From IMG/VR virus record IMGVR_UViG_3300044622_000912, positions 1-44,544 of that record: 44,544 nucleotides of DNA; one strand, given 5' to 3'. The stretch's first letter is position 1, and each line of letters begins with the position of its first letter. The notes beneath the pieces were generated by a model. It was not told where the DNA came from. It worked only from the letters and a program-made list of their open reading frames with translations, and did not search any database. The DNA is from a virus. Made by a program: the position numbers and the translations under genes. Shown piece by piece: positions 5,735 through 44,544 of the stretch.

Positions 5735-7690
5735 ATGCCTTGTAAGAGTTATAAAATCACATCTACTGCACCTTTTAAAATAATACAGTTTACTCCATGT
5801 TGTGGTAATCCTATTTCACCATTGGTAATTCTTAATCCTCCTGGAGTAAGATACATTTGTTCATCTACGACACCATCAGTTCCTACTGGCGTATCTTATA
5901 CTTTAATGGGAGAATGTTGTATTTCAACACCTACACCTACAAAAACAAAAACTCCAACTCCTACACCGACAAAAACAAAAACTCCAACACCTACACCGAC
6001 AAAAACAAAAACTCCAACTCCTACACCGACAAAAACAAAAACACCAACACCTACACCGACAAAACCAATTTGTAAAAATTATAAGATTACAGTAACGTCA
6101 GTTTTTGAAATAATACAGTTTACTCCATGTTGTGGTTCTCCTAGTTCACCAATGAGTGTTGGTCAGGGAATAACATACGTTTGTTCATTTACATTCCCAT
6201 CAGTTCCTACTGGAGTATCTTGTACTTTATTTGGAGATTGTCCAACTTGTCCAACACCTACACCAACTCCTACACCTACTCAAACAGATTATACTCAATG
6301 TACTTGTTTTACTGCAATTAATCCATATGCAGATTTCATTGGTATAAAATATACCAATTGTTATAATATTCCTGACCAAGGAATTATGGTTCCGGCACTA
6401 GGAACTGTCCAATTTTGTGCACTATCAATCACAGACGATTATTTTGGTATAACGTCACCAACAGGTATTTGTTCTAATAATGTAGATTGTAATGGTCCAA
6501 CTCCTACACCAACAAAAACTCCGACACCAACACCTACAAAAACTTTAACTCCTACACCAACAAAAACTCCGACACCAACACCTACAAAAACTTTAACTCC
6601 TACACCCACAAAAACATTAACTCCTACACCAACACAAACATTAACACCAACATTAACATCAACACCAACATTAACACCAACACCTACAATAACTTCAACC
6701 CCACAATGTGTACCATTCTCTGGAACAGATTTTACCACAACATGGGAAACTACTAGTCCAAATGAAATGATCACTTTACCTTATGACTCATTAGGTACTT
6801 ACTCAGGGATAATAGATTGGGGTGATGGTAACACAAGTGTTAATAGTTATGCAAATAGAACTCATACCTACGCAACTGCGGGAACTTATACGGTAACTAT
6901 ATGTGGAACTATTGAAGGTTGGAATTTTTCACTTTATGCAACTGCAGCTTTACAGATTAGAACAGTAGAAAGATGGGGTCAGTTACGAGGTAGGAATAAT
7001 TCTTGTCCAGGTTTTCTTAATTGTGCAAATTTAGATGCAAATTTAGTTCAAGATACTATAGATTTAACAGGATATGTTACTTTGATATCAATGTTTCAGG
7101 GTTGTAGTTCCCTTACGTCTATTAATAATATAAATTCTTGGAATACATCATTAATTACAGATATGCGGTCTATGTTTTTAGGTTGTTCGTCATTTAATCA
7201 ATCATTGAGTTTTGATACATCATCAGTTCAAACTATAAATCAAATGTTCCGCAATTGTACAGTATTTAATAGCCCACTTTTCCTTGACACATCATCAGTT
7301 ATGTATATGGATAATATGTTTGGAAATTGTGGATTCAATCAACCACTTATTCAAGGTGTAAATGGATGGGATACTTCATCAGTTATTTCTATGGCTTCTA
7401 TGTTTGCGTTATCCGCAGCATTTGATCAAAACATAGGAAGTTGGGATGTGACAAGTGTTACTCAAAACTTTGATAATCCAACAAATAATGATTTTATGTT
7501 TGGTAAAACACCTTTAACATTCTCTACCACTAACTTAGATGCAATATACGCTGGATGGAGTAGTCAGGTTGTTAATACAGGTCTTACTATATCTTTTGGT
7601 TCGGCTAAATATACAACATTAGGAGGACAAGCAGGAAAAGATATTTTAACAAATACATACGGTTGGATTATATCTGACGGAGGAGTTTAA
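5735..7690 (+). CDS. Repeat-rich adhesin/tail-fibre-like protein (PKD and BspA-type domains)
   Basis: A 651-residue mosaic. Two related Cys-containing domains of about 58 residues (residues ~2-65 and ~112-170, both with [13 protein letters not shown] and PSVPTGVS) flank a [10 protein letters not shown] repeat array; a third Cys-rich domain (~185-250) precedes a second Thr/Pro array (~255-322). Then comes a PKD-like segment ([28 protein letters not shown], ~355-390), and finally several BspA-like (DUF285) repeats of about 25 residues with [13 protein letters not shown] and [13 protein letters not shown] signatures. PKD and BspA domains usually mediate adhesion, so host binding at the virion surface is the likely role. 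No signal peptide is seen, which fits a virion protein rather than a secreted one. It lies just before DNA polymerase but has a separate promoter. Confidence 0.72.
5738..6245 (+). repeat. Duplicated Cys-domain within the adhesin gene
   Basis: DNA at about 5738-5925 and 6070-6245 encodes two similar domains. Nucleotide identity is still visible in stretches such as ATAATACAGTTTACTCCATG and in the segment for PSVPTGVS, which implies a recent internal duplication separated by the first Thr/Pro array. Confidence 0.75.
5941..6066 (+). repeat. 30-bp in-frame tandem repeat encoding [10 protein letters not shown]
   Basis: Units beginning AAAAACAAAAACT recur at 5941, 5971, 6001 and 6031, with single-base differences (CCAACTCCT or CCAACACCT). 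The period is ten codons, so copy-number change keeps the frame. Confidence 0.9.
6497..6703 (+). repeat. 48-bp tandem Thr/Pro/Lys repeat array
   Basis: Units starting ACTCCTACACC recur at 6500, 6548 and 6596 with an exact 48-nt period (16 codons), then degenerate into shorter ACACCAACATTAAC-type repeats. The array links a Cys-rich domain to the PKD-like domain. Confidence 0.85.
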
Positions 7691-10950: not shown

Positions 10951-12075
10951 TTAAATAACGTAAATTTGTCTTGGAAACGCTCTAAATTTCATTGCCTTAT
11001 TTAAGTTTTCAGCAATTAACGCTTCACGTTCCATTACCTTTTCAGGTTTTAATCTTGTTAGACGACCTTCAGCACCAATTAATTCGTCAATTAATTTTGT
11101 TTTTTCATCTTTTGCCTCAGTTGCTAATGCCGCATAATCCATAGTTAAATCACCATCAGGGGATTTAAGGTTACCACTGAATTTACCTCTTACTCTTGCC
11201 AATGTTTCTTTACAATAAGCAATAAACCATCTTCTAACCCAAACTTGAGCTGGATTATTAAGATCCAACCAACTAATTTTATCGTAAGGTACGTCAGAAG
11301 GTAATTTAATAATATCAGGATTGTTTTTTAAACATTCGTCCCTATCTTCAGGACCAACATCATAATACCAATACCAAACTCTACCTTTCATCATTGTGGA
11401 ATTACCAAAGTCAAATTTACCACCAGGAGTGTTCATTAAGTGAACTGCTTTCTTACCTCCCGGTAATGCGGTTACCCTATAAGTTAAATCTCCCGAAATA
11501 ATTCTTTTCTGAATGTTGATCTCTTGCATTCTTAATAACATATCAAATGCTGGCATCATAAAATAACTTCCTGCCATGTTACCCATTTGTGCAAATCCAC
11601 CTGCTCCACCAATACCACCACCAAATTCTCCGAATCCAAATCCTGCCCCAAACATTGAATTATTTAAAGTTGCCGGTGTAAACCATAACAATTCATTAAG
11701 TTCTCTGTTTTCAGGAATTTCGTATATTTGTTGGTTATGAACTAATTGTATAAAATCTTTTTTCAATACTGAATCACCACCCGCTTGTAGACCTACAATT
11801 TTAGAATAAGCATAAGTGTATCGTGTTTCGTAATCTAAACTTCTTGTTGTAAACGCTTTTGATAATGATTGAGTGTCCATGTTTAAGTTATACAAATTAG
11901 TCCACTGAGATTCAGTTAACCAATCTTGGACGTATTGTGAATATTCGTCAATAGAAAATTCAAGAAGAGTGTCCATTTGTTCCTCTTCCAATTCTACACT
12001 TCTAAGTGGAGCACCTAAAACGTGTTTCACTTTTTTGTATAGGTCACTTCTTTCTGGTTCGTTAATTATTGACAT
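10951..12075 (-). CDS. 13: gp13-like neck protein (head completion)
   Basis: T4 gp13 joins the portal vertex to gp14 and the tail. This 374-residue protein shows the gp13 N-terminal pattern, LYKKVKHVLGAPLRSVEL followed by EEQMDTLLEFSIDEYSQY, which aligns with the LGAP..NVEL..DQ..D.I..AL..Y of T4 gp13 as I remember it. The C-terminal half also fits: an AQVWVRRWFIAYCKETLARVRGKF segment, then a helix rich in E/K before the end. A Gly/Phe-rich loop near residues 140-165 (FGAGFGFGEFGGGIGGAGG) is unusual. It is about 65 residues longer than T4 gp13. The gene has a TATTTAT motif on its own strand and is followed at 1 nt by a small unknown gene. gp14- and gp15-like genes lie on the other strand 3 kb away. 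Confidence 0.68.
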   Translation of the reverse strand: MSIINEPERSDLYKKVKHVLGAPLRSVELEEEQMDTLLEFSIDEYSQYVQDWLTESQWTNLYNLNMDTQSLSKAFTTRSLDYETRYTYAYSKIVGLQAGGDSVLKKDFIQLVHNQQIYEIPENRELNELLWFTPATLNNSMFGAGFGFGEFGGGIGGAGGFAQMGNMAGSYFMMPAFDMLLRMQEINIQKRIISGDLTYRVTALPGGKKAVHLMNTPGGKFDFGNSTMMKGRVWYWYYDVGPEDRDECLKNNPDIIKLPSDVPYDKISWLDLNNPAQVWVRRWFIAYCKETLARVRGKFSGNLKSPDGDLTMDYAALATEAKDEKTKLIDELIGAEGRLTRLKPEKVMEREALIAENLNKAMKFRAFPRQIYVI

Positions 12076-12100: not shown

Positions 12101-13189
12101 TTATTTTGTTCTTAACAAATATAATTCGTTAACAAATTCCCAATTAACGTGATTCCAAAAATTATTTATATATTCGTCACGTTTATTACGATATTTTAGA
12201 TAGTATGCGTGTTCCCACACATCAAGTCCTAATAGTGGATACCCACCATCTTTAACTACATTCATTAATGGATTATCTTGATTGGATGTAGATATAATTT
12301 TTAATCTATTATTTTTAGTTAAAATTAACCAAGCCCACCCTGATCCAAATCTATCCTTAGCGACCTGATTAAATTCATCTTTTAATTTTTTAATATTTCC
12401 GTATTGTTTTGTAATTTTTTCAGACACCTCACCACTTGGTTTTTGTTTGGTTGGACTTAACATTTTCCAAAATAAAGCGTGATTAAAAGCACCTCCTGCG
12501 TTATTTCTAACTTTAGTATCATACTTACTAATGTTTTTGATTATGTCTTCTAATTCAACATCGCCTTTTTTATTTGATAATGCATCATTTAATTTCTTAA
12601 CATAACCTTTATAATGTTTGTTGTAATGAATATCCATAGTTTCAGGATCTACAAATTGTTTCATTGAGGAATATGAATATGGTAATTTTTCAATACCAAT
12701 TTTTTTCATTTCCATTATAAAATCTTTTTTTATATTTTGTTTTTCTGAAATTAAAATTTGTTCATTAATAAGATTAATTTTATTGTTAATCCCTTTAAAC
12801 CCTTCAAAAACATATTCATTAAATTGTGGGTATTCTTCTTCAAACATTTTAATTAGTCGGCCACCATATGCATTTGCCTCATCTTCATTCTGACCACCAA
12901 TGTTTGGTCCTTGTTCTCTTTTAAGAACATTTATTTGGTAAGCATGAACCCACTCATGAGCTAATGTTCTCATTATATCACGATTTAATCTACCATCAGT
13001 TAATACTTTAATTCCATTTTTTGGGTGTTGACTACCTGTAGACATTCCACCTATTTTTTTACCCACAAATTGAATAGTAATATCCTCCTTTAATTGATAA
13101 TTCTTTTGTAAGAATTTAATAAAGGTGTGAATTAACTCGTTATACTTTGAATCAAGTCCTGAATTTATACGTTTGATGCTTACTTTCAT
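12101..13189 (-). CDS. Zincin peptidase-superoxide dismutase fusion
   Basis: Residues 1-135 hold a zinc-peptidase signature, LAHEWVHAYQ (H78, E79, H82), followed by DEANAYGG with E104 as likely third ligand, an arrangement like ImmA/IrrE-type gluzincins. A linker of about 35 residues leads to a complete Fe/Mn superoxide dismutase domain (166-362). Its metal ligands are all present: H188 (MDIHYNKHY), H237 (NNAGGAFNHALFW), D323 and H327 (LGLDVWEHAYYL). GSGWAWL and NQDNPLM with Q304 favour the Mn or cambialistic type over the strict Fe type. SODs convert superoxide to oxygen and peroxide. No signal peptide is visible. The gene lies between the neck protein and an SNF2 helicase, with a TATTTAT motif only 5 nt before the ATG. 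A virion-packaged or cytoplasmic protective role is possible; activity is unproven. Confidence 0.85.
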   Translation of the reverse strand: MKVSIKRINSGLDSKYNELIHTFIKFLQKNYQLKEDITIQFVGKKIGGMSTGSQHPKNGIKVLTDGRLNRDIMRTLAHEWVHAYQINVLKREQGPNIGGQNEDEANAYGGRLIKMFEEEYPQFNEYVFEGFKGINNKINLINEQILISEKQNIKKDFIMEMKKIGIEKLPYSYSSMKQFVDPETMDIHYNKHYKGYVKKLNDALSNKKGDVELEDIIKNISKYDTKVRNNAGGAFNHALFWKMLSPTKQKPSGEVSEKITKQYGNIKKLKDEFNQVAKDRFGSGWAWLILTKNNRLKIISTSNQDNPLMNVVKDGGYPLLGLDVWEHAYYLKYRNKRDEYINNFWNHVNWEFVNELYLLRTK

Positions 13190-13220: not shown

Positions 13221-14990
13221 TTATCTTCTCTTGTTAATTAAACCAAGGATTTCCTCAACAACATCACCAACGTTTTCAGGTTGTTGATCACCCATAACGG
13301 TTCTAATGATTTCTTTTTTACGATTTAGTATGTCATATACCGCACCTTCTATTGTATTTTCATACAATGGGTAATAAACAAGTACGTTTGATTTTTGACC
13401 ATAACGATACGCTCTATCTTCAGCCTGAGCGTGTTCAGCGGGAACAAATGATAGGTCATTCATAATAACAACCTCAGCGGCAGTTAAAGTTAAACCAACA
13501 CCAGCAGCTTTTAAATTCCCCACAAATACTTTAATCTTATCGTTCTCTTGAAACTCATCAACTGCGTTTTGACGATGAGGTTTGGAACAACTACCGTCTA
13601 AATAAACTGCTTGTTTACCAAAGTGTTGGTAAATTGTTTGTAAGGTATCTGTAAAATTAGTAAAGATTATAACTTTCTTACCTTGTTCAATGATGTTTTC
13701 AGCAAATTCAATTGTCTGTTTTGTTTTTTCATTTGCAATAACCTTCCTTACTTTCATCAATTTTGAGAACTGAACGGTAAGGGAAGAGGATTCGTCTTTT
13801 TTATTATCAAACCAATCATAGTATTCACCCATCAGTTCTTCATACTCTTTTGATTTCAAACGAAGATATACAGGAGAAATAATTTTATCGGGAAGATCTA
13901 ACACATCTTCTTTTAACCTACGAAGAATTTGTTTTGAAGTTCTATCTCTTAACTCTTCCAAATTAGATGCCCCCGTTACGTTCCAAACTTTTCTTCTACC
14001 CGCCATAAATTGGTAACCCTGACAATAACGAATAGCGTAAGCCATCCAATTTTGTGCAACTGGTGATTCAATAATGTTTAGTAAGTTATAGTAGTTCATT
14101 GGACGAGAAGTCATTGGAGTTCCCGTTAATAACCAAACTCTTTTAATATCCTTAACAAAATGATTTATGATTTTTGTTCGTTGAGCTTGGGGATTTGAAA
14201 TCATATGTGCCTCATCTAAAATAACAAGGTCAAAGTTTGATTGATTTAATATTGATCCATTTTTCTTTTTTGGGTCAGTATCGTGGAAATTTTTTAGGAT
14301 ATCATAATTAACGATAACAAAATCGGATTCAGTTGAAAATTTCTTTCCCTCTGCAATATAAACAGGTCTATCTGAATAATTTTCAATTTCACGTTGCCAG
14401 TTAATCTTTAATGATGCGGGACAAATAATTAATATTTTCTTTGATCCTGTCTCTAAAGCGGCAATGATTGTTGCGGTTGTTTTACCAAGACCCATATCAT
14501 CAGCAAGAATGAATCGTCTTGATCCTGCCAACTTTTCTACCGCTTCTTTTTGATGTTCCAATGGAGGTCGGTGATCATATTTAGAATAATCTACCTCAAC
14601 TTTTTCAACATTGTGAGTTTTTATTAATGAAGATTTAGGAACCCAAAATTCTGTTAAAGGATCCTTTTCAAAGAACTTACCCCAAATATGATATGATTTT
14701 TCTTTCTCAACTAATAATTTCTCAATGTAAATTTTTTCAGGAGTTTCCATCAAATATCTTTCTTCGGCAAACTTCTTTGCAAAATATGTATCAAGATCAA
14801 CCCACTTACGAGCAACCTTAGGAACCGTATCAAAATAATTTATAATGTAATCTGATTGAGTTCTTGTTGGGTAAAACTTTTTACTAGTTTCTTTTTTTGT
14901 TTTTAGATACAATATATGATTATTGGCACCCGAATACGAGTCCAATAAGGACAAAGCTTTATGCTCTATTAGTGATGGGGCAACTTCCAA
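13221..14990 (-). CDS. SNF2-family DNA helicase/translocase
   Basis: A superfamily 2 ATPase of the SNF2 class. Counting from TTG 14990, DDMGLGKTT (K170) is Walker A, VILDEAH (259-262 for DEAH) is Walker B, LLTGTPM is motif III, and the second RecA domain holds VYLDGSCSKPHRQ, GVGLTLTAAE and AEDRAYRYGQ (motif VI arginines). Such phage proteins may remodel forks or recombination intermediates, a role UvsW plays in T4. The frame extends to a TTG at 15035, but that codon lies inside the promoter motif and the extra 15 residues are a hydrophobic string from AT-rich DNA. TTG 14990, preceded by ATAAAAAACAAAAT, is preferred; ATT at 14993 cannot be excluded. No ATG occurs near the front. It starts divergently from the gp14-like gene. 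Confidence 0.85.
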   Translation of the reverse strand: MEVAPSLIEHKALSLLDSYSGANNHILYLKTKKETSKKFYPTRTQSDYIINYFDTVPKVARKWVDLDTYFAKKFAEERYLMETPEKIYIEKLLVEKEKSYHIWGKFFEKDPLTEFWVPKSSLIKTHNVEKVEVDYSKYDHRPPLEHQKEAVEKLAGSRRFILADDMGLGKTTATIIAALETGSKKILIICPASLKINWQREIENYSDRPVYIAEGKKFSTESDFVIVNYDILKNFHDTDPKKKNGSILNQSNFDLVILDEAHMISNPQAQRTKIINHFVKDIKRVWLLTGTPMTSRPMNYYNLLNIIESPVAQNWMAYAIRYCQGYQFMAGRRKVWNVTGASNLEELRDRTSKQILRRLKEDVLDLPDKIISPVYLRLKSKEYEELMGEYYDWFDNKKDESSSLTVQFSKLMKVRKVIANEKTKQTIEFAENIIEQGKKVIIFTNFTDTLQTIYQHFGKQAVYLDGSCSKPHRQNAVDEFQENDKIKVFVGNLKAAGVGLTLTAAEVVIMNDLSFVPAEHAQAEDRAYRYGQKSNVLVYYPLYENTIEGAVYDILNRKKEIIRTVMGDQQPENVGDVVEEILGLINKRR

Positions 14991-15025
14991 AATTTTGTTT
15001 TTTATAAAAATAACAATAAAAAAGA

Positions 15026-15041
15026 TATTTATCAATAAATA
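15026..15041 (+). promoter_or_regulatory. Bidirectional TATTTAT promoter between SNF2 and gp14-like genes
   Basis: GATATTTATCAATAAATAC is a near palindrome. The plus-strand TATTTAT (15026-15032) precedes the gp14-like ATG by 16 nt; the minus-strand TATTTAT (15041-15035) precedes the SNF2 TTG at 14990 by 44 nt. One site may therefore serve both directions. Confidence 0.5.
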
Positions 15042-20719: not shown

Positions 20720-21559
20720 ATGAAAGATTACCACAAAATTATTGTTAAAGAAATTATCAACGAAATTATTCAGGAAAAACAAACACCGGTAATGAAATAT
20801 TACGCTTTTGACTGGGATGATAATCTTATGTTTATGCCAACAAAAATATATCTTAAAGATGATAAAGGTAAAAGTGTTGGAATGTCAACTGAAGATTTTG
20901 CGGAATATAGAACTGATATTGGTGAAGAACCTTTTGAATATAAGGGACACACCATAGTATCTTTTGATGAAGAACCTTTCAGAGATTTCAGGGTATCAGG
21001 AGACAAACAATTTATAACGGATGCAATGTCAGCACCAACAGGACCGGCATGGGATGATTTTGTGGAGGCAGTTAATAATGGTTCAATATTCGCTATTGTT
21101 ACCGCAAGAGGACACACACCTTCTATATTAAAAGAGGGGGTTTATAGATTAATTAAACAGAATAAACATGGTTTGGACTCAAATCAGTTAGCGAAAAATC
21201 TTTTAAAGTATAGAGATTTAGCGGATGAAGATAAATTATCTAAAGATCAACTAATACGATCTTACTTAGATATGTGTCGTTTTCACCCTGTGTCTTTCGG
21301 AGATGGTTCCGCAACTAACCCCGAACAAGGAAAAATAGATGCAATGGAAGAATTTGTAAGTTATATAAAAAACTTATCACATTCATTACAACAAAAGGCA
21401 TTTATGAAGAACAAGATTAGTAACTACTTTACACCATTTATTGGTTTTTCAGATGATGATGTAAGAAATGTAGAAACTATGAAGAAACATTTTGATAAAA
21501 AAGAAGATAATATATTAAAGACTTATTTAACTGCAGGAGGACAAAAGAAATTATATTAA
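20720..21559 (+). CDS. HAD-superfamily phosphatase-like protein
   Basis: A 279-residue protein with HAD motifs: YAFDWDDN (nucleophile D31, acid D33) as motif I, IVTARGH (T128) as motif II, a candidate motif III lysine in PEQGKIDAMEEF, and FIGFSDDDVRN (acids 245-247) as motif IV. HAD enzymes dephosphorylate nucleotides, sugars or polynucleotide ends; the substrate is not evident. The first 24 residues (MKDYHKIIVKEIINEIIQEK and four more) form an amphipathic helix ahead of the domain, which would start at M25. Such a leader might target the protein to the capsid, as capsid-targeting peptides do in T4, but this is inference. It interrupts the sheath-tube pair, an unusual place for an enzyme. Confidence 0.75.
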   Translation: MKDYHKIIVKEIINEIIQEKQTPVMKYYAFDWDDNLMFMPTKIYLKDDKGKSVGMSTEDFAEYRTDIGEEPFEYKGHTIVSFDEEPFRDFRVSGDKQFITDAMSAPTGPAWDDFVEAVNNGSIFAIVTARGHTPSILKEGVYRLIKQNKHGLDSNQLAKNLLKYRDLADEDKLSKDQLIRSYLDMCRFHPVSFGDGSATNPEQGKIDAMEEFVSYIKNLSHSLQQKAFMKNKISNYFTPFIGFSDDDVRNVETMKKHFDKKEDNILKTYLTAGGQKKLY

Positions 21560-41938: not shown

Positions 41939-42388
41939 ATGAGAGATCAAGATGTAACAAAAGTTGAATTCCTATTAATGTGTAATGATAACATTGTAGT
42001 ACAACGTTTTTTTAACGTTAAAGGATTTAACAAAAACGCCCACAAATCTGAGGATTTTTATGACCATATGAGTATGGTATGTCGTAAATTAGAATATGAT
42101 TTGAAAATGCGATCAGTGGTCTATATGTTAGACAACAAATATGAAATTTCTGAGAATCCAGAAATTTTAAATACGTCAATTACTGACGGTGATGAAAATT
42201 TTAACCTTTATATTAAGGTTGGAGACCTGACAATTTGTCAGAGAAGGTTTGATGCTAAAGTGTATCCACCAAAGGTAAGATATACCGTAGACCTACGCCC
42301 AAAGCTAAAAGGTATACTAAACGACCTGACTGACATTTTTTCAGGCAAAAATTTTAATTATTTTTACCCTGAATTTATCCAAAACTAA
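41939..42388 (+). CDS. Unknown replication-operon protein
   Basis: 149 residues, MRDQDVTKVEFLLMCNDN at the start, then FNVKGFNKNAHKSEDFYDHMS and VVYMLDNKYEISENPEILN. It has alternating strands and helices and no motif I can name. It sits 22 nt after the exonuclease stop and 32 nt before the helicase gene. Expression with replication genes suggests an accessory role, not more. Confidence 0.62.
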   Translation: MRDQDVTKVEFLLMCNDNIVVQRFFNVKGFNKNAHKSEDFYDHMSMVCRKLEYDLKMRSVVYMLDNKYEISENPEILNTSITDGDENFNLYIKVGDLTICQRRFDAKVYPPKVRYTVDLRPKLKGILNDLTDIFSGKNFNYFYPEFIQN

Positions 42389-42391
42389 TAG

Positions 42392-42398
42392 TATTTAT
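42392..42398 (+). promoter_or_regulatory. TATTTAT motif before the helicase gene
   Basis: AGTATTTATCTTTACTAACAG lies 22 nt before ATG 42421. Unlike most starts here, the leader then carries AGAAGGAAAA, a purine-rich stretch like a Shine-Dalgarno sequence. Confidence 0.4.
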
Positions 42399-42420
42399 CT
42401 TTACTAACAGAAGGAAAATT

Positions 42421-43809
42421 ATGGCGACAAACAAAAATTTTGAGTATCTAGGAAACACATTCCAATTACAATTACTTAATCAAATTATCTTAGATAAAGA
42501 TTTTTCACATTCAATCATTGATGTGATTGAAAACAATTATTTTGAAAATAAATACTTTAAAATAATTACCCAAATGATCAGAGAGTATTATACAAAATAT
42601 GATCACACACCATCATTTGAGACATTAGAACAGATTACTAAATCTGAACTACAACAAGAGATTGCATCCAAGATAGTATTGGATACAATTAAGAAAATTA
42701 AGGACGCACCTATTGATGGTGTAGCTTTTGTACAGGAAAAGGCGTTAAAGTTCTGTAAACAACAGGAACTTCAAAAGGTTATGACCAAAGCTCAAAAAAT
42801 CATTGATGGTGGTGAATTTGAGAACTATGATGCCCTTGAGGAAATGGTTAGAGGAGCTTTACAAGTAGGAGCTAAAGACACAAGTTCAATGGATGTCTTC
42901 TCCAACATTGATCAGGTCCTTGATGACGACTACAGACACCCAATTCCAATGGGAATACCTGGAATTGATAGACTACTTAAAGGTGGTTTGGCTAAAGGTG
43001 AGATTGGGGTTATATTAGCACCAACGGGTGTGGGTAAATCTACAATCTTAACTAAAATTGCTAACCACGCATTTAACTTAGGAAATAACGTACTTCAGAT
43101 CTTTTTTGAGGACAACCCAAAGGTAATACAAAGAAAACATTATACACTTTGGACTAAGATTCATCCTGATGAATTGTCAGAAAAAAGAGACGAAGTTATC
43201 AAAAAGGTTAAAGATATTGAGGAATCTATGCCAAATAAGTTAATTATGAATAAGTTACCATCTGATACGGTAACCATGTCACAAATTAAGAATCAAATCA
43301 GAAAGATGGTTGCTGATGGTAATAAGATTGATATGGTATTACTTGATTACATTGACTGTGTTGTTCCTGATAAGAATTTAGGTGATGAATGGAAGAGTGA
43401 AGGATCTGTAATGAGAGCATTTGAAGCTATGTGTCACGAAATGGATTTAGTTGGATGGACTGCAACACAAGGTAATAGAAGTTCTATTTCTTCTGAGGTT
43501 GTAACAACTGATCAAATGGGTGGATCAATTAAAAAGGCACAAGTTGGTCACGTTATTATTACGGTTGCAAAAACACTTCAACAGAAAGAAATGAAATTAG
43601 CAACAATAGCAATTACAAAATCAAGGGTTGGTGATGACGGAGTTGTATTTGAGAATTGTAAATTTGATAATGCGATGCTAGACATTGACACCGATAGTTC
43701 TATGACTTTCTTAGGGTTGGAAGAACAAAAAGAAGAAAAACAACGATTAAGAGTCAAAGAGTTGTTAGAAAAAAGACAACAAAGACAAAACGAAACAAAA
43801 ACTAATTAA
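42421..43809 (+). CDS. 41: DnaB-family replicative helicase (gp41-like)
   Basis: 462 residues, close to T4 gp41 (475). The N-terminal helical domain (about 1-165) leads to the RecA-like ATPase: [21 protein letters not shown], Walker [10 protein letters not shown] (K206), [10 protein letters not shown], a Walker [11 protein letters not shown] (D309), TATQGNRSS near 352, and [15 protein letters not shown]. The protein unwinds DNA at the phage fork as a hexamer on the lagging strand; with DNA polymerase, gp32 and the FEN nuclease it forms a nearly complete T4-type replisome. The gene follows the unknown gene and precedes nrdB by 13 nt. Motifs are intact. Confidence 0.9.
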
Positions 43810-43822
43810 TTTTAAGAAAAAA

Positions 43823-44544
43823 ATGGAAAAAATATTAAAGGAAAACCCTAACAGGTTTGTTATCTTCCCGATTGAACACAATGACATATGGGAATACTAC
43901 AAAATGCATCAGGCGGCGTTTTGGACGGCTGAAGAAGTAGATTTAACGAATGATATTCGCGATTGGGAAAAATTAACAGATAATGAAAAGTTTTTTGTTA
44001 AGAATGTATTATCATTTTTCGCAGCTTCTGATGGGATTGTAAATGAAAATTTGGCGGAGAACTTCTATCGTGAAGTACAATATCCTGAGGCTAAGTTTTT
44101 CTACGGTTTTCAGTTGGCGATGGAGAATATTCACTCATTAATGTATTCGTTATTGATTGATACTTACATTAGTAATCCAAAAGAAAAAGATGAGTGTTTT
44201 AATGCAATTGAGAACTTACCAGCAGTTAAGAAAAAAGCGACATGGGCTCTTGATTGGATTGATAATTCATCATTCCAAGAAAGATTAATTGCGTTTGCTG
44301 CGGTTGAAGGTATATTCTTTTCAGGATCATTCTGTTCAATATTTTGGATGAAATCAAGAGGAATAATGCAAGGTTTGTGTAATGCAAATACACTTATTTT
44401 TAAAGATGAAAACTTACATTGTGATTTTGCAATTCACTTATTGAACAACCATTGTGAGGAAAAACCATCTGAAAAAAGAATTAAGGAGATTTTGTTATCG
44501 GCTTTAGAAATTGAAAAAGAATTCATTACTGAGTCATTACCTGT
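43823..44544 (+). CDS. nrdB: Ribonucleotide reductase small subunit (3' end cut off)
   Basis: The frame opens at ATG 43823 and runs off the window; 240 residues are visible. It is a class I R2 protein of the eukaryote-like type: FWTAEEVDL (D40), ENIHSLMY (E101, H104, with Y108 at the radical tyrosine position), [10 protein letters not shown] (E162) and KDENLH (E196, H199) give a full diiron set and a tyrosyl radical site. The enzyme makes deoxynucleotides for phage DNA. Two usual sequences differ: HSLMYS instead of HSE(M/T)YS and [11 protein letters not shown] instead of NELI-RDEGLH. It lies 13 nt after the helicase gene in the same operon; the large subunit may lie beyond the window. Confidence 0.92.

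Follow-up and report, generated by a model that had tools for sequence, protein, structure and literature searches.

The superoxide dismutase (SOD) that forms the C-terminal half of a zincin-SOD protein encoded in the window (the whole 44.5-kb IMG/VR record analysed here) is best read as a capsid-packaged cargo enzyme, which would be freed by the prohead protease and probably ejected together with the DNA. We put the probability of this reading at roughly 65%. Packaging, cutting, ejection and activity are what we infer from features at the sequence level, namely the modular build of the proteins, invariant metal ligands, [LI]xE motifs at the junctions, the occurrence of both split and fused forms, a single clade of fused proteins, and a prohead protease in large relatives.

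The window contains sheath, tube, baseplate hub, polymerase, UvsX-like recombinase and helicase genes, and its source is a contractile-tailed, T4-like phage. The zincin-SOD gene occupies positions 12101–13189 of the minus strand (362 aa, ATG start, stop codon included), as supported by ORF calling, Pfam and IMG/VR relatives, and the plus strand is full of stops across the same interval. The open reading frame of the original prediction was real, but its position in the gene block had to be corrected: it lies on the minus strand, in a four-gene minus-strand block with the order small gene, head-tail adaptor, SOD, helicase. The head-tail adaptor (neck) gene at 10951–12075 (phrog_211, 6e-10) and the DNA helicase gene on the other side, at 13221–15035 (phrog_62, 7e-115), are both on the minus strand and, based on synteny, are conserved neighbours. 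Elsewhere in the window, a plus-strand gene at 5735–7690, downstream of a glycosyltransferase-like gene, encodes a 651-aa protein with long repeats.

IMG/VR protein scans found 190 relatives by query and at least 568 and at least 396 by profile patterns, and the best 80 loci of each set were kept. Of the best 80 of 190 loci, 78 covered the protein from residue 1 to at least residue 357 and two ran into a contig end, indicating that the fusion is not a chance or chimeric join. Scans with an SOD-start pattern and a zincin-motif pattern returned at least 119 stretches each; since such scans take the best or listed matches, the frequencies given here are not a census. Among the matches listed, 129 SOD-start frames comprised 86 with SOD but no zincin (some cut by contig ends), 38 with both, one with zincin and no further SOD motif, and four with neither. 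In two large records (G015 and G016; 317 and 203 kb) a tagged SOD and a separate zincin were both present, far apart. Based on the 86 of 129 listed frames without zincin and on these two records, the fusion looks derived and not essential. INPHARED contained no record matching the query over 80% of its length, and among its "phage" records with a match to the SOD half, several probably come from bacteria. Bacterial-type genes also surround the SOD of freshwater contig MW462191. In UniProt, two proteins of uncultured Caudovirales phages are related to the two halves: A0A6J5L953 (501 aa), named "superoxide dismutase", shares 69% identity across 206 aligned columns, and A0A6J5L9U4 (127 aa) shares 42% identity with the zincin. 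Both are annotated by name only or not at all, and are known here as fold matches.

The putative zincin (HExxH) domain spans residues 1–129 (12803–13189; this and all following features of the gene are on the minus strand). AlphaFold predicted confident helices and strands up to residue 127, with residues 1–127 modelled as a separate, mostly confident fold, and a stand-alone gene ends at about the same point. The HEWVH motif (residues 78–82, 12944–12958), with H78, E79 and H82, and the E102-D103-E104 triplet (12878–12886), which holds the candidate third zinc ligand, were invariant in all 81 rows of the alignment (best 80 of 190 IMG/VR loci plus the window, many of them near-identical contigs). 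E104 was kept in 216 of 216 rows, which include repeated contigs and correspond to 97 different proteins. This half fell below every Pfam cut-off, and Pfam, PHROGs and PDB profile searches gave it no name; the weak Pfam matches included DUF6055, DUF4344, M76, SprT and M78, and the single member given in full scored below both cut-offs. A fold match was found in BFVD to a phage protein named IrrE N-terminal-like (E 6e-5). Fold relatives of the zincin were seen in BFVD only, because the PDB fold matches listed belonged to the SOD half. Among the matches listed there were also 12 complete stand-alone zincin frames of about 130–157 codons between stops, which start like the fused ones and carry no obvious tag. 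That split genes turned into one chain suggests a shared task or place.

The Fe/Mn superoxide dismutase domain covers residues 161–362 (12104–12709) and was assigned by Pfam and by PDB sequence and fold matches. Pfam placed Sod_Fe_N (3e-20) and Sod_Fe_C (7e-40) on residues 166–355, and the top PDB sequence match was 6gsc (1e-61), titled Sphingobacterium Mn SOD. Both Pfam domains and the four metal ligands of Fe/Mn superoxide dismutases (three His, one Asp) are present: H188 (12626–12628), H237 (12479–12481), and D323 and H327 within D323-x-W-E-H327 (12209–12223). H188 and H237 were invariant in 81 of 81 rows, and Q304, D323 and H327 in the 80 rows reaching them (best 80 of 190 loci plus the window). 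The ligands were equally invariant in 60 unfused proteins plus the window among the matches listed, where Gln 304 (12278–12280), assigned to the Mn-type position by a PDB match and alignments, and the Gly-Leu before the Asp were conserved; we take these two features to go with the use of Mn rather than Fe. From this we infer that the SOD half is a complete superoxide dismutase of predicted Mn type and predicted activity. An HExxH zincin joined to a complete Mn-type SOD was the core of the original prediction and is borne out: H78, E79, H82, E104, H188, H237, Q304, D323 and H327 are present exactly as claimed and invariant in relatives wherever these are covered, homologues with lost SOD ligands, which would have refuted the claim, were looked for in the rows above and not found, and both domains were modelled with fair to good confidence.

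A complete SOD of bacterial (Bacteroidota-like) type would also suit an ordinary phage metabolic enzyme, in which zincin and SOD stay one chain in the infected cell and remove superoxide late, the linker being a flexible helix. Other jumbo phages have SOD-like genes without the leader and module features described below. PA5oct and its relatives and Vibrio phage 2.275.O encode Fe/Mn SOD homologues, about 27% identical, that lack a zincin and a C-terminal module. The PA5oct protein has a short start ending in SIAE/A (slash, border after the Glu), and its record flags it with ESI-MS/MS; this is weak evidence for a place in the virion, as ribonucleotide reductase and thymidylate synthase carry the same flag. 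For MIJ3, which is near-identical to PA5oct, four structural proteins were reported by mass spectrometry, in a paper that does not use the word superoxide (PMC6892783). Both PA5oct and Vibrio phage 2.275.O (L538, L539) have a ClpS-like adaptor gene ahead of their SOD-like gene, one gene upstream in the former and three genes upstream in the latter. Microcystis virus auxiliary genes include an Fe/Mn SOD and may buffer reactive oxygen, according to an excerpt of a paper on these viruses (PMC12542629). A metabolic enzyme of this kind would, however, leave unexplained why variable leaders of mostly fixed length keep an invariant Glu and an Ile or Leu at P3, as well as the junction motifs and the tagged stand-alone modules, and we consider it unlikely.

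The linker (residues 130–160, 12710–12802), delimited by alignments and AlphaFold, takes the position of the leader of about 30 aa found on unfused SODs, and holds candidate cut sites after E143, E149 and E160. Residues 129–174 were the only stretch of the AlphaFold model with pLDDT below 50. The leader tag is N-terminal in unfused relatives and internal, behind the zincin, in the window protein; as the zincin precedes the tag, cutting would free it. Among the matches listed, the 49 fused representatives (proteins below 90% identity) had E160 in 49, E143 in 46 (Gln in the other three), Leu or Ile at 141 in 49, Ile or Leu at 158 in 48, and M161 in 49. Unfused frames were kept if they held one of three SOD motifs and had an upstream stop in the locus. 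In the 81 such frames among the matches listed, Glu always stood directly before the SOD, with Ile (57), Leu (22) or Met (2) at P3, so that [IL]xE marked the border between leader and SOD in 79; the first SOD residues, including Met, were fixed by the search pattern, and the P1 Glu and P3 lie outside it. The 60 different unfused leaders with an ATG were exactly 30 aa long in 48 cases, and their last Glu was the only invariant residue (matches listed). Codons at the site varied synonymously: of 74 Glu codons 63 were GAA and 11 GAG, and Ile and Leu were encoded in several ways, a pattern that fits selection at the protein level. The invariance of M161 could also point to two products made by an internal translation start, with a separate SOD beginning at M161, but unfused SODs with a Met at this place (required by the search pattern) nevertheless keep the leader of about 30 aa, and I/L-x-E is kept as protein while its codons change, making such a start very improbable.

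Fused and unfused SODs occupy the same locus between helicase and neck genes. Among the matches listed, and counting distinct stretches long enough to show the neighbour, the helicase gene came immediately upstream of the SOD in 108 of 112 fused and in 49 of 51 unfused cases; the neck gene followed downstream in 88 of 89 fused and in all 52 of 52 unfused cases. A locus counts as "unfused" here if it gave no zincin match, so a small number of fused genes truncated at a contig end may be among them. Although this adjacency would fit a neck or head-tail structural protein whose SOD fold is a scaffold or, as had been proposed, aims the peptidase, the invariant SOD ligands, in unfused proteins and in the fused rows reaching them alike (matches listed), and the occurrence of SOD without a peptidase make a structural role, including targeting by the SOD fold, the least credible of the explanations considered.

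A tree was built that combined 16 fused and 16 unfused phage SODs with 40 bacterial ones, the latter sampled from 78 chosen by likeness to the window SOD. The phage SODs formed one clade (100/100) apart from the bacterial SODs. Within it, the fused SODs formed a single clade (100/100) nested among the unfused ones, which never grouped together by themselves (0% of 200 bootstrap replicates); forks between the unfused groups received moderate support only. If the root lies on the bacterial side, this nesting indicates that the tagged SOD is the older state, and the single fused clade indicates that the zincin was joined once.

The zincin-SOD pair is the mere core of a larger modular family. Fused members reach 958 aa and carry one or more of several different modules behind this core. 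Among the matches listed, 97 different fused proteins comprised 54 extended ones (four cut further on by a contig end), 37 ending 0–3 residues past residue 362, and 6 cut by a contig end. All 54 extended proteins had an [LI]xE within 40 residues after the SOD, compared with 194 of 540 later windows. The motif itself is weak: an [LI]xE is present in 36% of the later 40-residue windows of these listed proteins. The stricter [LI][NDT]E[SNA] was found after the SOD in 38 of the 54 and in 13 of the 540 later windows (matches listed). Unfused SODs with a long C-terminal domain likewise had an [LI]xE after the SOD in 56 of 56 listed cases. One fused member (L126) reads zincin, SOD, module E, module E, module B, with a separator at each join. 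The idea that long members are SOD-neck fusions was rejected, as their extra parts did not match the window neck protein (best E 0.17).

Module B and the C-terminal domain D of unfused proteins are related (hhalign probability 90, E 1.4e-6) and share an invariant D...QxK core; neither had a Pfam match over the cut-off. For module B, Foldseek gave nothing at E 0.001 or better, with I-Ssp6803I on top at 0.018, and the top rows of VIA were SPARDA chains (Z 7.4, 121 residues, rmsd 3.7), with no row at Z 8. We presume these fold matches to be PD-(D/E)xK nucleases, and B and D look like nucleases, that is, candidate DNA-cutting domains. A 304-kb relative (G001) encodes homologues of modules B, C and E in separate genes whose products begin with an [LI]xE tag; the match to E, for instance, is 58% identical across 90 residues and that to B 28% identical across 200. 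In one alignment of module C the separator LNES stood against the tag's IKEE. No search gave module A a name; its two matches in G001 (E 2e-5 and 8e-5 among 367 proteins) were short, fell on different parts and were not trusted. At 42375–43985, G001 also encodes a 536-aa tagged protein with one copy of module C found by BLAST and a second by eye, set off by [LI]xE motifs (LKEESN and ITESTS); such polyproteins may therefore occur beyond SOD.

A protease of the appropriate kind was sought in the relatives. In phage T4, cutting by gp21 shortens gp23 by 65 residues, and the prohead protease shortens gp24 by 10, as described in excerpts of PMC9958956; the T4 sequence reads FLTE/A and LLRE/S at these borders. 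A gp21-type protease (Pfam Peptidase_S77) was detected in six of seven tested records above 200 kb, and gp23 in four of four tested large relatives, whose gp23 proteins have LINE/A aligned to the T4 FLTE/A site. S77 was found neither in the remaining record above 200 kb, nor in the 44.5-kb window fragment, nor in ten records of 160 kb or less, of which seven came from the closest relatives of the window (41–95 kb) and three others measured 150–160 kb.

In G001, an [LI]xE with A, S, G, Q or N as the next residue occurred within residues 1–30 in 82 of 367 frames; the three windows after that had it in 41 of 357, 24 of 300 and 26 of 247 frames. In the same genome 45 of 367 frames started with one of three tag types, compared with 4 of 1732 internal Met positions; the three patterns were written after viewing the same genome, against which the internal-Met control guards only partly. 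Pfam named 2 of these 45 tag-bearing proteins (two families, one member each), and one of the two, a thymidylate synthase, may be a false positive of the patterns. Dozens of small G001 genes (loci L230–L247; e.g. 13668–14653 and 54202–55880) have near-identical starts such as MKKVIRLTESDLTRIVKRVINE, often in runs. In the isolated Flavobacterium phage immuto, which has an annotated prohead protease, [LI]xE was not enriched in residues 1–30 (23/214, vs 22/207, 11/162 and 9/130); four or five of its genes, some beside head genes, have a start like MENFDLKKFLVENKLTTNSKILKEN (L328–L331). The zincin profile had no match in immuto, and immuto was absent among the INPHARED SOD matches. In the window itself, a plus-strand gene at 20720–21559 starts with MKDYHKIIVKEIINEIIQEKQ, which resembles the same kind of [LI]xE tag; it contains YAFDWDDN, presumably a HAD-like motif, and had no Pfam or PHROG match. 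Its evident G001 counterpart (214321–215220) keeps the tag pattern with different letters.

The route known for T4 internal proteins, in which tagged cargo is brought to the prohead, cut and ejected with the DNA (excerpts of PMC9958956, PMC9026906 and PMC5694885), offers a possible mechanism. A short leader with little structure, of the type that targets proteins to the capsid, would precede the newly made SOD and carry it into the prohead core. During head maturation, the gp21-type prohead protease would cut the leader after [LI]xE, and the freed SOD, plus any module behind it, would remain in the head with the DNA, with which the SOD would most likely enter the host. There it could remove superoxide in the first minutes of infection, arising either from respiration upset by infection or from a defence that makes superoxide; alternatively, it might act earlier, protecting the packaged DNA before infection in sunlit water. 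The nuclease module could act on host or competing DNA. In the clade of the window, a zincin gene would have been joined in front, so that the leader became the internal linker between zincin and SOD, and in many relatives the same kind of site would link the SOD to a further module at its C-terminal side, nuclease-like or other, so that the cargo would be made as a polyprotein. A packaged enzyme against oxidative stress had been proposed originally and is favoured here by three features: a leader bounded by [LI]xE, a gp21-type protease in large relatives, and the exchange of modules. The fusion, on which the proposal was based, is the part that appears derived and dispensable.

Several points stand against packaging of the SOD as cargo. 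The tag of the fused protein is internal while T4 tags are N-terminal, and stand-alone zincins have no obvious tag. The leader has 30 aa compared with 10–20 in T4, the weakness of the [LI]xE motif has been noted, and 3 of the 49 listed fused representatives have Gln at 143. S77 is missing from the window, from the ten records up to 160 kb and from one above 200 kb; immuto shows no N-terminal excess of [LI]xE, and the SOD-like protein of Vibrio phage 2.275.O has no such leader. Finally, a nuclease stored beside the phage's own DNA would need restraint.

Compared with T4 internal proteins IPI–III and Alt, which carry a capsid-targeting sequence (CTS) cut by gp21, the SODs described here are alike in the short leader, the Glu at P1 and the Leu or Ile at P3, and the large relatives likewise have a gp21-type (S77) protease and gp23; G001 also has an acidic gene in the place of gp22, assigned by position only. 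They differ in that the cargo would be an SOD whose chain may also include nuclease-like or small modules, known from sequence alone, and in that the leader is about 30 aa long or internal, the T4 targeting tags being N-terminal and of 10–20 aa in the excerpts available. For the ejection proteins of phiKZ, 201phi2-1 and SPN3US, excerpts give the motif A-x-E in SPN3US and S-x-E at phiKZ sites, in place of the [LI]xE seen here, and name no SOD among the proteins described. Bacterial Fe/Mn SODs share the whole fold and all ligands (46–57% identity in the best 80 bacterial loci), and the phage SODs differ from them in being a separate clade, tagged and modular. Neither a zincin-SOD fusion nor a capsid-packaged SOD appeared among the titles and abstract openings listed for searches of the open-licence PMC literature. 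The internal-protein route is known from T4, and SOD as its cargo is probably new.

The zincin-SOD phages are a family of giant, T4-like lake phages. Most of the best 80 bacterial SODs were labelled Bacteroidota, many of them Chitinophagales, and the closest relatives of G001 gp23 were an uncultured 484-kb phage record, a Microcystis phage and Flavobacterium phage immuto; the host is likely one of the Bacteroidota. In a broader reading, T4-like giant phages, probably of Bacteroidota, would carry a tagged effector set in the head, made up of dozens of small proteins and polyproteins with gp21-cut N-terminal tags, to which the helicase-neck locus would contribute a widely conserved piece, an antioxidant enzyme that in many cases comes with a nuclease-like domain. 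We put this forward tentatively, leaning slightly against it.

If the SOD is indeed packaged, the phage ships a metal antioxidant enzyme in its particle, and superoxide would matter in the first moments of infection, or else for the particle itself in sunlit water. Whether reactive oxygen limits infection of Bacteroidota would become testable, and the tag could list injected proteins from the genome text alone in a large group of uncultured lake phages. If the broader reading also holds, these phages would combine a virion-delivered superoxide defence with a readable code that predicts which phage proteins are injected.
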